A stretch of 64,000 nucleotides of DNA from the NCBI GenBank assembly GCA_000696115.1, contig JJOH01000097.1, forward strand, positions 62,001 to 126,000, given 5' to 3'. Shown piece after piece: positions 17,560 to 20,296 of this stretch (its first letter is position 1; the number at the start of each line of letters is the position of its first letter). The notes under the pieces were generated by a model. It was not told the origin of the DNA and ran no database searches. It saw only the letters and a list, made by a program, of their open reading frames with translations. A program made the translations under genes and the position numbers. Source of the DNA: Streptomyces olindensis. Lineage in GTDB: Bacteria; Actinomycetota; Actinomycetes; Streptomycetales; Streptomycetaceae.

Positions 17560-18444
17560 ATGCAGCACGCAGTGGGTTCTCCGCTGCCGCCGCCCCATCA
17601 GCCGGGGCACGGACCGGCCGCCGGCTGGTCGCCGGCCGCACACCACCCGGGTCCGCACCACCCGGGCGCGCACCAGGGCTCCGTGCCCGTGCCCCCGCCG
17701 CCCCCGGCACCGGGGTATCCCGCGCCCCCACCCGGCCCGGCCGCGCCCCCACCGGGCCCGGCCGCACCTCCACCGCAGGCTTCCGTTCCACCGCCGCCGG
17801 ACACCACCGGCCATGTGCCCCTGCCGCCGGGCGGCCCCGTCGCCATGCCGAGCGCGCCGCCCGCCGCGACGGCTCCCGACCCCGCCGGTACGACGCTCGC
17901 CGTGCTGCTCATAGGCCCCGCGGGCGCGGGCAAGACCAGCGTCGCCAAGTACTGGGCGGATCATCGCCGCGTGCCCACGGCGCACATCAGCCTCGACGAC
18001 GTACGCGAGTGGGTCCGCTCCGGCTTCGCCGACCCGCAGTCCGGGTGGAACGACAACTCCGAGGCGCAGTACCGCCTGGCCCGCCGCACCTGCGGCTTCG
18101 CCGCGCGGAACTTCCTGGCCAACGGCATCTCGTGCATCCTTGACGACGCAGTCTTCCCCGACCGGCCGGTCGTCGGCCTCGGTGGCTGGAAACGCCACGT
18201 CGGCCCCGGCCTGCTCCCCGTCGTCCTGCTCCCCGGGCTGGACATCGTCCTCGAACGCAACGCGGAGCGCTCGGGAAACCGGCGGCTGTCGGACGAGGAG
18301 GTCGCCCGCATCCATGGCCGCATGGCCGGGTGGTACGGGTCCGGCCTGCCGATCATCGACAACTCACAGCTGGACGTCCCGGAGACGGCGAGGGTGCTGG
18401 ACGACGTCCTGGCCCGCTCCATCGCCAGCCCACCCCAGTGGTGA
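17560..18444 (+). CDS. P-loop kinase-like ATPase with proline-rich N-terminus
   Basis: 294 residues. Residues 8-100 are dominated by Pro, His, Gly and Ala with PAAPPPGPAAPPP-type repeats. A P-loop fold follows: Walker A IGPAGAGKTS at about 118-127, an aspartate pair in SLDDVREW, a lid-like arginine region (ERNAERSGNRR) and a C-terminal helix. This is like AAA_33/zeta-type small kinases. The substrate is unknown and no antitoxin lies beside it, so a toxin role is not supported. ATG with GAGACGGAG upstream. Conserved position after aroB in Streptomyces as I remember it. Proline-rich tracts suggest binding to SH3/WW-like or membrane partners; that is inference. Confidence 0.7.
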   Translation: MQHAVGSPLPPPHQPGHGPAAGWSPAAHHPGPHHPGAHQGSVPVPPPPPAPGYPAPPPGPAAPPPGPAAPPPQASVPPPPDTTGHVPLPPGGPVAMPSAPPAATAPDPAGTTLAVLLIGPAGAGKTSVAKYWADHRRVPTAHISLDDVREWVRSGFADPQSGWNDNSEAQYRLARRTCGFAARNFLANGISCILDDAVFPDRPVVGLGGWKRHVGPGLLPVVLLPGLDIVLERNAERSGNRRLSDEEVARIHGRMAGWYGSGLPIIDNSQLDVPETARVLDDVLARSIASPPQW

Positions 18445-18480: not shown

Positions 18481-18570
18481 TCCCACCGGCTCGCGGACGA
18501 CGAACGTGCGGCTGCCCCACTCGGCCTCTCCCGAACGGCGCCGAACCCGCGGAGCTCATACGCTCGGGTC

Positions 18571-19680
18571 ATGTCAGAGGTGTACGCGGCCCGCCGGACG
18601 CGTCTGAGGGAATACTGCAACGCGGGCGGCAGCGCGGCGGCGCTGGTCTCCCGCCCCGCCAACGTGCGCTATCTCGCGGGCGCCGCCCCGCTCGGCGCCG
18701 TTCTGCTGCTGGGCAGGACCGAGGACCTCCTGGTGTGTCCCGGCTCGTCCGCGGACCGACCCACGCAGGAGCGCCCCGACGAGGCCCTGCGCGTACAGAC
18801 CCTGCCCGGAGCCGACGGCGGTGACCCCGCCGTCGCGGCGGCCCGCCTCGCCGCCGGCCAGGGCGCCGACTCCCTCGCCGTGGAGGAGCACCACCTCACC
18901 GTGGCCCGGCACCGGGCCCTCGGCTCGGTCGCCCCCCGGCTGCGCCTGGCCAACCTCGGCGGCGCCGTCGAGCAGCTCCGGGTCGTCAAGGACGAGGAGG
19001 AGATCTCCTGCCTCCGCATCGGCGCCGAGATCGCCGACCAGGCCCTCGGCGAACTGCTGGAGTCCATCCTCGTCGGCCGCACCGAGCGCCACCTCGCCCT
19101 GGAGCTGGAGAGACGCCTGGTCGACCACGGAGCCGACGGCCCGGCCTTCCCGACCTCCGTGGGCACGGGGCCCAACGCCGGGCGGCCGGGCCACCGCCCC
19201 ACCGACCGCCGTGTCGAGGAGGGCGACTTCCTCTCCGTCTGCCTCGGCGCGACGTACCGCGGCTACCGCTGCGAGATCGGCCGCACGTTCGTCATCGGCA
19301 CCGCGCCCGCCGACTGGCAGATCGAGCTGTACGACCTGGTCTTCGCCGCCCAGCGGGCCGGACGTGAGAGCCTGGTACCCGGCGCCGCCTGCCGGGACGT
19401 CGACCGCGCCGCCCGCCAGGTCCTGGACTCCGCGGGCTACACCGAGGGCCTCACGGTCCTCACCGGACACGGTGTCGGGCTCGAAATCGACGAGGACCCT
19501 CAGTTGAGCCCGGCGGCCATGGGTAAACTGGACGCTTGCGTGCCGGTCACCGTCGAACCGGGGGTCCACCTCCCGGGCCGGGGCGGCGTCCGGATCGATG
19601 ACACGCTCGTCGTCCGCCCCGAGGCGGACGGCGGACCCGAGCTACTCACCATCACGACCAAGGAGCTGCTCGCCCTGTAG
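18571..19680 (+). CDS. M24 (prolidase/aminopeptidase P) homologue with degenerate active site
   Basis: 369 residues with the creatinase-type N-domain (1-125) and the pita-bread fold C-domain, clearly related to actinobacterial PepQ. The metal and catalytic residues are altered: the first metal Asp of the usual DFGA is C224 (VCLGA), the second Asp of SDxTRT is E235 (CEIGRT), H300 is kept (TGHGVG), the catalytic His of the usual HE.P is D307 (IDEDP), E329 is kept (VEPG) and the last Glu is D343 (RIDD). It is therefore probably not an ordinary dimetal peptidase. It lies 49 nt before efp, the usual pepQ-efp neighbourhood. Confidence 0.85.
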
Positions 19681-19729: not shown

Positions 19730-20296
19730 GTGGCTTCCACGAACGACCTCAAGAACGGCATGGTGCTCAAGCTCGAAGGCGGCCAGCTCTGGTCCGTCGT
19801 CGAGTTCCAGCACGTCAAGCCCGGCAAGGGCCCGGCCTTCGTGCGCACCAAGCTCAAGAACGTGCTCTCCGGCAAGGTCGTCGACAAGACCTTCAACGCC
19901 GGCGTCAAGGTCGAAACGGCCACCGTCGACAAGCGCGACATGCAGTTCTCCTACATGGACGGCGAGTACTTCGTCTTCATGGACATGGAGACCTACGACC
20001 AGCTCATGGTCGACCGCAAGGCCGTCGGCGACGCCGCCAACTTCCTCATCGAGGGCTTCATGGCCACCGTCGCCCAGCACGAGGGCGAGGTGCTCTTCGT
20101 GGAGCTCCCGGCCGCCGTCGAGCTGACCGTCCAGGAGACCGAGCCGGGCGTCCAGGGCGACCGCTCCACCGGCGGCACCAAGCCCGCCACCCTGGAGACC
20201 GGCCACCAGATCCAGGTCCCGCTCTTCATCACCACCGGTGAGAAGATCAAGGTCGACACCCGCACCAGCGACTACCTCGGCCGGGTGAACAGCTAA
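19730..20296 (+). CDS. efp: Elongation factor P
   Basis: Relieves ribosome stalling at polyproline stretches. 188 residues with the three beta-barrel domains. The tip loop [10 protein letters not shown] contains the conserved lysine. The C-terminal signature is present ([18 protein letters not shown]). GTG start with AGGAGA 10 nt upstream. The nusB GTG follows after 2 nt, so the two are cotranscribed. The proline-rich P-loop protein at 17560 and mltG are the kind of proteins that need EF-P. Confidence 0.96.

Follow-up and report, generated by a model that had tools for sequence, protein, structure and literature searches.

A probable pseudo-prolidase beside efp in Streptomyces: loss of the M24 active site and a conserved helix hairpin

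We examined a gene for an M24 peptidase homologue that lies next to efp in Streptomyces olindensis. The window, meaning the whole 64,000-nucleotide stretch analysed (contig JJOH01000097.1, positions 62,001 to 126,000), carries it between a P-loop kinase-like gene and efp, and positions are counted from the first letter of the window. We take its neighbours to be efp and a nusB-like gene downstream, and aroB-like genes and the P-loop gene upstream. SCO1492 is presumably the S. coelicolor orthologue. Three genes are central to the locus:

17560-18444, + strand: gene whose product joins a proline-rich N-terminus to a P-loop kinase-like domain (AAA_33) and whose presence tracks the degenerate M24 gene
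18571-19680, + strand: putative pseudo-prolidase gene, 369 aa, an M24B orthologue without the active-site set (open reading frame, Pfam, phmmer and row comparison)
19730-20296, + strand: efp (elongation factor P), whose linkage with the M24 gene extends across the class (neighbour searches)

The M24 reading frame starts with ATG, ends with TAG and runs for 369 residues without interruption; efp begins with GTG at 19730. Against Pfam, the window protein matches Peptidase_M24 (PF00557; E=1.8e-52, 178.6 bits, cut-off 23) and Creatinase_N (E=3e-14). Its predicted structure has a mean pLDDT of 92.5 and aligns with the Xaa-Pro dipeptidase 3q6d with a Z of 43.5 and an rmsd of 2.2 over 354 residues. 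Sequence and modelled fold therefore both place it in the M24 superfamily, and the model indicates that the prolidase fold is kept. A preliminary description of the gene had held that fold and efp-side position are retained, and both points stand, the latter with a 49-base gap between the genes.

The active site tells a different story. In phmmer alignments to four solved prolidases (1wy2, 1pv9, 1wn1 and 5giu), C224 and E235 fall opposite two aspartates, H300 falls on one conserved histidine and D307 on another, and E329 and D343 fall opposite two glutamates, bearing out all six residue assignments of the preliminary description. In M24B, the aligned Asp/Asp/His/Glu/Glu positions are the metal ligands and the second conserved histidine is catalytic. 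A further change, absent from that description, replaces the PH-motif histidine with G207. Where an active M24B peptidase has the ligands D, D, H, E, E and catalytic histidines at 207 and 307, the window protein thus has C, E, H, E, D together with G207 and D307. Judged by these residues, the peptidase role that the family name suggests is ruled out. Comparison extended to 266 distinct intact orthologue rows, of which 36 are canonical (H207, D224, D235, H300, H307, E329, E343) and 230 are degenerate:

19189-19191, + strand: codon 207, Gly where the canonical residue is the PH histidine; His in 36/36 canonical and 6/230 degenerate rows
19240-19242, + strand: codon 224, Cys at the first metal Asp position; Asp in 0/230 degenerate rows
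19273-19275, + strand: codon 235, Glu at the second metal Asp position; Asp in 0/230 degenerate rows
19468-19470, + strand: codon 300, His at the metal His position, kept; His in 221/230 degenerate rows
19489-19491, + strand: codon 307, Asp at the catalytic His position; His in 3/230 degenerate rows
19555-19557, + strand: codon 329, Glu at the first metal Glu position, kept here; Glu in 184/230 degenerate rows
19597-19599, + strand: codon 343, Asp at the second metal Glu position; Asp in 182/230 and Glu in 44/230 degenerate rows

These rows were gathered with the window protein (P0001) as query in overlapping samples of the genus, family, order, class, phylum and a set of named genomes. Matches were found in 59 of 61 genus genomes (E<=1e-60), 120 of 121 family and 142 of 147 order genomes, 120 of 197 class genomes (E<=1e-30) and 35 of 119 phylum genomes (E<=1e-50). 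For the named genomes, the best 80 of 568 relatives, that is, the nearest ones, were retained, and all 76 distinct rows from them are degenerate. The 266 rows were read out of 288 loci, leaving aside L001-L007 (paralogues, and the window's gene region in a second copy), two frame-broken loci (L100, L108), one at a contig end (L104), those from the efp search (L201-L208) and 5 identical rows. Three of the class places down to E 6.5e-50 (G074, G091, G125) lie outside the row set.

The degenerate rows comprise Streptomyces and most of its family, and all 230 distinct rows of this clade are degenerate. Among the canonical rows, seven come from that family itself (genera coded g91 and g94) and another three from two neighbouring families in the order. 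All 60 further class orthologues are also canonical, 56 of them with efp in the fetched stretch, so that 96 of 96 rows outside the clade keep the full set. Position before efp of the best match, together with tree position, assigns the window gene to an efp-linked prolidase group of Actinomycetes. The preliminary description had asked whether the changes are fixed among orthologues, and within the clade they are, without exception. It had also counted close relatives keeping D, D, H, E, E as evidence against its reading; none does so inside the clade, whereas sister lineages do, which dates the loss. An M24 fold, lost active-site residues and conservation of that loss together describe an inactive M24 homologue. 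The concordance of all 230 rows rules out a local accident or sequencing error as the cause of the residue loss.

Two subclades differ in what remains of the ligand set. Subclade A (n=187; Streptomyces and several other family genera), which we defined by residues, mostly keeps H300 (186/187), E329 (184), D343 (182) and E235 (174), with C224 in 147. Subclade B (n=43) has Gly or Ala at 329 in 43/43 rows and Glu at 343. Row L097 falls outside both A and B on the tree. Because C, D, E or H occupies each of the five ligand positions in 146 of 187 A rows, a changed metal site is possible in A, and C224/E235/H300/E329/D343 could bind another metal, or a single one, and catalyse a different reaction. 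Such a ligand set occurs in none of the 43 B rows, though, and Arg occupies 224 in 35 A rows and Arg or Gln occupies 235 in 12; several Streptomyces rows that branch early in A have Arg or Gln instead of Asp. Positions 207 and 307 also vary widely in a fast-evolving pocket. We consider a retuned metalloenzyme quite unlikely.

Two side observations concern individual rows. Histidine is present again at 307, without the metal Asp pair, in three degenerate rows (L041, L091, L127), probably through drift. A record titled Kitasatospora aureofaciens NRRL B-2183 (L227) holds a copy that shares 90% identity with that of the window and has the residues G/C/E/H/D/E/D; this identity is at Streptomyces level, and the species name of the record may be out of date.

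We traced the origin of the loss with trees. Maximum likelihood, applied to 95 of the 266 rows (including 31 of the 36 canonical ones) with the seven sites removed, groups the 64 degenerate rows into one clade with support 100/100 on a stem of 0.34 changes per column. A tree of all 266 rows concurs (stem 0.40, support 0.967). Both trees indicate that the active site was lost once, on a long branch, in one ancestor within the Streptomyces family; by the residue patterns, both metal aspartates went in that ancestor and both catalytic histidines in nearly all descendants. The long branch is seen in M24 and not in EF-P. Among 52 rows, mean M24 distance to outgroups is 1.54 for degenerate rows and 0.80 for canonical rows of the order, compared with EF-P distances of 0.56 and 0.49 for the same groups of genomes, and the degenerate rows do not form one clade on the EF-P tree. 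We looked in 22 genomes for P0003, a canonical paralogue or near relative, and 19 gave a match (E<=1e-60). With identities of 47-100%, some of these matches may be another paralogue; residues were read in the window genome's copy. Simple takeover of the peptidase role by P0003 is not supported, because the three genomes without a match are basal Streptomyces carrying the degenerate gene.

Is the gene still maintained? By likelihood, omega was 0.066, 0.087, 0.099 and 0.116 for the four sets of degenerate rows, compared with 0.069 and 0.043 for the two canonical sets; the gene is thus maintained as a protein. Pairwise NG86 medians exceed the likelihood values, at 0.18 to 0.38 in degenerate sets and 0.24 and 0.26 in canonical ones. 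The subclade B medians (0.34 and 0.38) lie above the canonical pair, and by this measure the gene is perhaps held somewhat less tightly in B. The EF-P omega of 1.000 in the subclade B set was taken as an optimiser failure and is unused. With a fixed loss, one origin and purifying selection, the proposal that the protein was retained as a non-peptidase is well supported at the sequence level.

A few genomes lack a readable gene. One (G028) has the gene end alone, at a contig edge. Three (G050, G443, G285) also yield no efp match (E<=1e-40); either their assemblies or the search must therefore have missed the region. Four family f42 genomes (G363, G367, G368, G370; loci L203-L206) have the aroB-like gene and efp close together with no M24 match between them; the M24 gene is absent from its efp-side place there. 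Frame breaks occur in G323, where the M24 gene is split over three frames and the adjoining efp is readable, and in G316, where M24, efp and aroB are all broken, which suggests sequencing errors in the latter. These breaks, and the longer branches after the loss, are what a decaying pseudogene might leave. Against decay stand 230 distinct intact rows, an omega close to that of the canonical gene and, for the clade as a whole, an invariant helix hairpin. We regard a pseudogene as extremely improbable.

Mapping changes on the trees by parsimony revealed where constraint now sits. Two segments stand out:

19051-19131, + strand: helix hairpin (residues 161-187), which hardly varies across the degenerate clade; the main candidate binding surface
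19627-19677, + strand: C-terminal tail, residues 353-369, near-invariant; constraint partly at nucleotide level in subclade A

The totals are 2573 changes for canonical and 5675 for degenerate rows. Nineteen pocket or near-pocket positions collected 34 changes in canonical rows and 366 in degenerate ones, where about 75 would be proportional. The reverse holds for residues 156-188 (239 canonical versus 40 degenerate), 161-170 (96 versus 4) and 361-369 (52 versus 2). On the degenerate tree, the C-tail contains 16 consecutive residues that each changed no more than once, the longest such stretch, and 0 of 2000 domain shuffles reached this length. By these counts, constraint has left the pocket, which evolves fast, and now rests on the hairpin and the C-tail. 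They also speak against one function the preliminary description had raised, the binding of proline-containing peptides, in so far as this would use the old pocket. In the model, residues 161-187 cover the last part of helix 142-165, then a turn, then helix 172-185; the two helices are the first of the pita-bread domain, and in this fold the hairpin is expected on the domain's outer face. Its conservation might reflect self-assembly through this surface or a need for stability.

Synonymous variation separates protein-level from nucleotide-level constraint. Across residues 156-188 it is normal (A, 0.380 observed versus 0.317 expected; B, 0.221 versus 0.248), which rules out a DNA-level cause for the frozen hairpin and puts its constraint at the protein level. 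Over the last 49 codons, it is halved in A (0.165 versus 0.314), somewhat reduced in B (0.235 versus 0.280) and not reduced in canonical rows (0.452 versus 0.418). Two kinds of constraint, protein and nucleotide, thus act on the C-tail, and because the latter contributes in A, the hairpin alone gives clean evidence for a protein surface. Frozen-block codons in A include AAA at 319 (184/187) and CTA at 358 (186/187), both rare in Streptomyces. In A, synonymous variation also drops sharply in a second stretch, 19624-19665 (codons 352-364), for which we found no promoter, RNA family or repeat to account. Rfam returned two matches, both far under the gathering score. One conserved 3' block has no other copy in the window's genome at up to 3 mismatches, and the other has ten copies elsewhere in it with 2 or 3 mismatches each.

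The surface constraint is older than the loss. The ratio of hairpin to rest-of-domain divergence is 0.07 in a 47-row subsample of A and 0.15 in B, but also 0.53 in the 10 canonical rows of the order, compared with 1.42 in the 26 other canonical rows. The canonical rows of the order already carry a similar hairpin sequence and the tail, so an origin of the constraint together with catalytic loss is ruled out; on this comparison, it began in still-canonical relatives. The plain reading would be that a second, surface role came first and catalysis was lost later. This order of events is testable, since the new constraint is found in canonical relatives before the loss.

We then considered the DNA of the gene itself, which carries two promoter-like elements:

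18559-18564, + strand: TACGCT, -10-like, 12 bases before the ATG; candidate leaderless-type promoter of the M24 gene (row comparison)
19522-19529, + strand: GGTAAACT, -10-like, inside the M24 gene; candidate efp promoter (TAnnnT in 312/326 rows)

Ahead of the M24 gene, TAnnnT stands at -12 or -13 from the start codon in 187/187 A, 42/43 B and 25/34 canonical rows, and is therefore kept in 229/230 degenerate rows. The window has no clear ribosome-binding site ahead of the M24 gene. This layout suggests a leaderless transcript and an expressed gene. Within the gene, TAnnnT falls at codons 318-320 in 187/187 A, 43/43 B and 34/36 plus 48/60 canonical rows. It is mostly GG-TAnnCT there despite differing residues (for example GKL, GTL, GRL, DTL), and the next best place for TAnnnT in that codon phase reaches 45% in A and 8% in canonical rows. 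A simple promoter and terminator scan, which demands a fair -35, returned 0 and 0. According to a study modelling the HrdB regulon, S. coelicolor efp (SCO1491) is a member, and the HrdB -10 is taken as TANNNT, with G or GG just upstream considered and a weak or absent -35 (PMC6344877). In a germination study of S. coelicolor, efp is one of the translation genes with high expression (PMC3767685). The motif counts indicate that an HrdB-type efp promoter probably lies at 19522-19529 and is common to much of the class. It would give an old reason for the linkage of M24 and efp, independent of the fate of the peptidase.

An internal promoter raises the alternative that the gene is kept merely as DNA, its 3' end housing the efp promoter. 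The near-universal element at codons 318-320 and the halved synonymous variation over the last 49 codons in A are in keeping with this. Yet omega is 0.07-0.12 across the whole gene, the hairpin is frozen as protein with normal synonymous variation, the M24 gene keeps its own -10-like element, and the four f42 genomes have efp without it. We find retention as DNA very unlikely. The internal promoter has a practical consequence, in that deleting the gene may remove the efp promoter and a simple knockout would be misread.

The same linkage bears on the idea, also raised in the preliminary description, that the protein acts with EF-P at the ribosome. The conserved neighbourhood invites it, and there is a precedent in Ebp1, an M24-fold protein that works by binding and is located at the human ribosomal tunnel exit (PMC7005732). 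But the linkage is older than the loss and is shared by canonical forms, so EF-P as partner is unproven, and the promoter-like element offers another likely reason for it. EF-P itself has little extra change where M24 has much, and efp persists in the f42 genomes that have no M24 gene beside it. A joint role with EF-P or the ribosome is thus not shown, and we judge it unlikely.

The upstream kinase gene, by contrast with efp, follows the state of the M24 gene. It is flanked by the aroB-like gene and the M24 gene, and its product has many PP/PPP runs in the N-terminus and an AAA_33 match above cut-off (4.4e-8); no NCBIfam model reaches cut-off on it. We found the kinase in the upstream stretch (0.4-1.4 kb) of 174/182 A and 15/42 B rows and in 0/36 and 0/38 canonical rows. 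At whole-genome level, all 12 genomes with a degenerate M24 gene have it and none of 17 others does. Across the family sample it occurs in 113 of 121 genomes, which are all 113 with a degenerate M24 gene (two frame-broken); it is absent from the seven canonical-gene genomes and from G285, which also has no efp or M24 match. Where it is not adjacent, it can be found for instance about 14 kb away (G288, G323) or on another contig (G267, G306, G358), and in G291 it was matched as two pieces. The kinase core has an omega of 0.028 over nine rows, more constrained than the M24 gene. The P-loop can be read in 199 of 221 rows, and short flanks affect many of the 22 loci where it cannot. Proline makes up a median of 35% of the first 100 residues of the kinase protein (range 5-42%; 173 rows, some reading into non-coding sequence). 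The kinase model (pLDDT 86.1) is nearest to 1zp6 (Z 18.9), with 1qhs at Z 16.2. No kinase was found in viral contigs. Phage records hold 23 relatives of the window protein, all below 60% identity and without bearing on our reading. PADLOC has no family for P0001 and gives the kinase weak ATPase matches.

This co-occurrence would fit a module of dead prolidase and kinase, gained in its present form on one branch, with the M24 protein as a subunit of the kinase. Adjacency in most A rows and the strong constraint on the kinase core are in its favour. Kinase gain and loss of catalysis share that branch and so count as one coincidence, which is striking without amounting to proof; a Fisher test of kinase presence against M24 state (p of 1.7e-11) ignores this and carries no weight here. 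Adjacency is also limited to 15 of 42 B rows, and partial correlations of distance matrices over 141 loci, to which we give little weight, are no stronger for M24-kinase (0.45) than for kinase-EFP (0.46), with M24-NusB at 0.30 and M24-EFP at 0.25. Finally, the hairpin constraint is older than the kinase, which cannot, for that reason, have been the first partner. We see the kinase module as possible but somewhat unlikely. In its fuller form, which we put forward tentatively and with the same reserve, the dead prolidase would be a targeting or regulatory subunit of the P-loop kinase, itself specific to the family and proline-rich at its N-terminus. The pair would be tied to translation by its place against efp, whose promoter it would contain, and the old enzyme would have been captured before it was disarmed.

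The reading we favour, with reasonable though incomplete confidence, is a pseudo-prolidase that has lost catalysis, is under strong selection and acts as a binding or scaffold protein. The enzyme would first have gained a second, binding role through its hairpin and tail face; peptide cleavage would then have become dispensable and been lost; and the protein, translated from a probably leaderless transcript of its own, would now serve as a binding or scaffold subunit. Among possible partners, we rank self-assembly or an order-wide partner first, the upstream P-loop kinase second and EF-P or the ribosome third. If so, the locus offers a dated bacterial case of an enzyme becoming a non-enzyme, in a genus of great practical importance, and the loss points to an unstudied kinase that tracks it.

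The closest known systems are the M24B Xaa-Pro dipeptidases and aminopeptidases (prolidase, PepQ, YpdF; 1wy2, 1pv9, 3q6d, 5cnx). The window protein is homologous to them over its whole length with a like fold, and its true class orthologues at the same place before efp are of the M24B kind. It differs from these enzymes in lacking the metal Asp pair and the catalytic His pair, in its changed second Glu and in its relaxed pocket constraint. The upstream kinase resembles P-loop small-molecule kinases such as Atu3015 (1zp6) and chloramphenicol phosphotransferase (1qhs) but, unlike them, has a proline-rich N-terminus in most rows. As a non-catalytic relative, the N-terminal domain of Spt16, which does not perform catalysis, shares an aminopeptidase-P-like fold (5ce6, Z 35.2); it is part of a eukaryotic histone chaperone, the FACT complex, and at 18% identity we claim no orthology. 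In our search of the open-licence literature, judged by title or abstract, no paper treats the efp-linked degenerate prolidase of Streptomyces. The portion of a 2024 metallopseudopeptidase review that we draw on names Ebp1 for M24, states that it retains only two of five metal-binding residues, and makes no mention there of prolidase, creatinase, Spt16 or Streptomyces (PMC11266112). LmaPA2G4 of Leishmania is described as another M24 pseudoenzyme (PMC3888471). Like Ebp1/PA2G4 as given in that part of the review, the window protein has two metal-binding residues left, here H300 and E329. Ebp1 is eukaryotic and of methionine-aminopeptidase type, whereas the window protein is bacterial and of prolidase type, has an N-terminal creatinase-type domain and underwent a separate loss. 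From its sequence, a bacterial pseudo-prolidase thus joins the known inactive M24 proteins.
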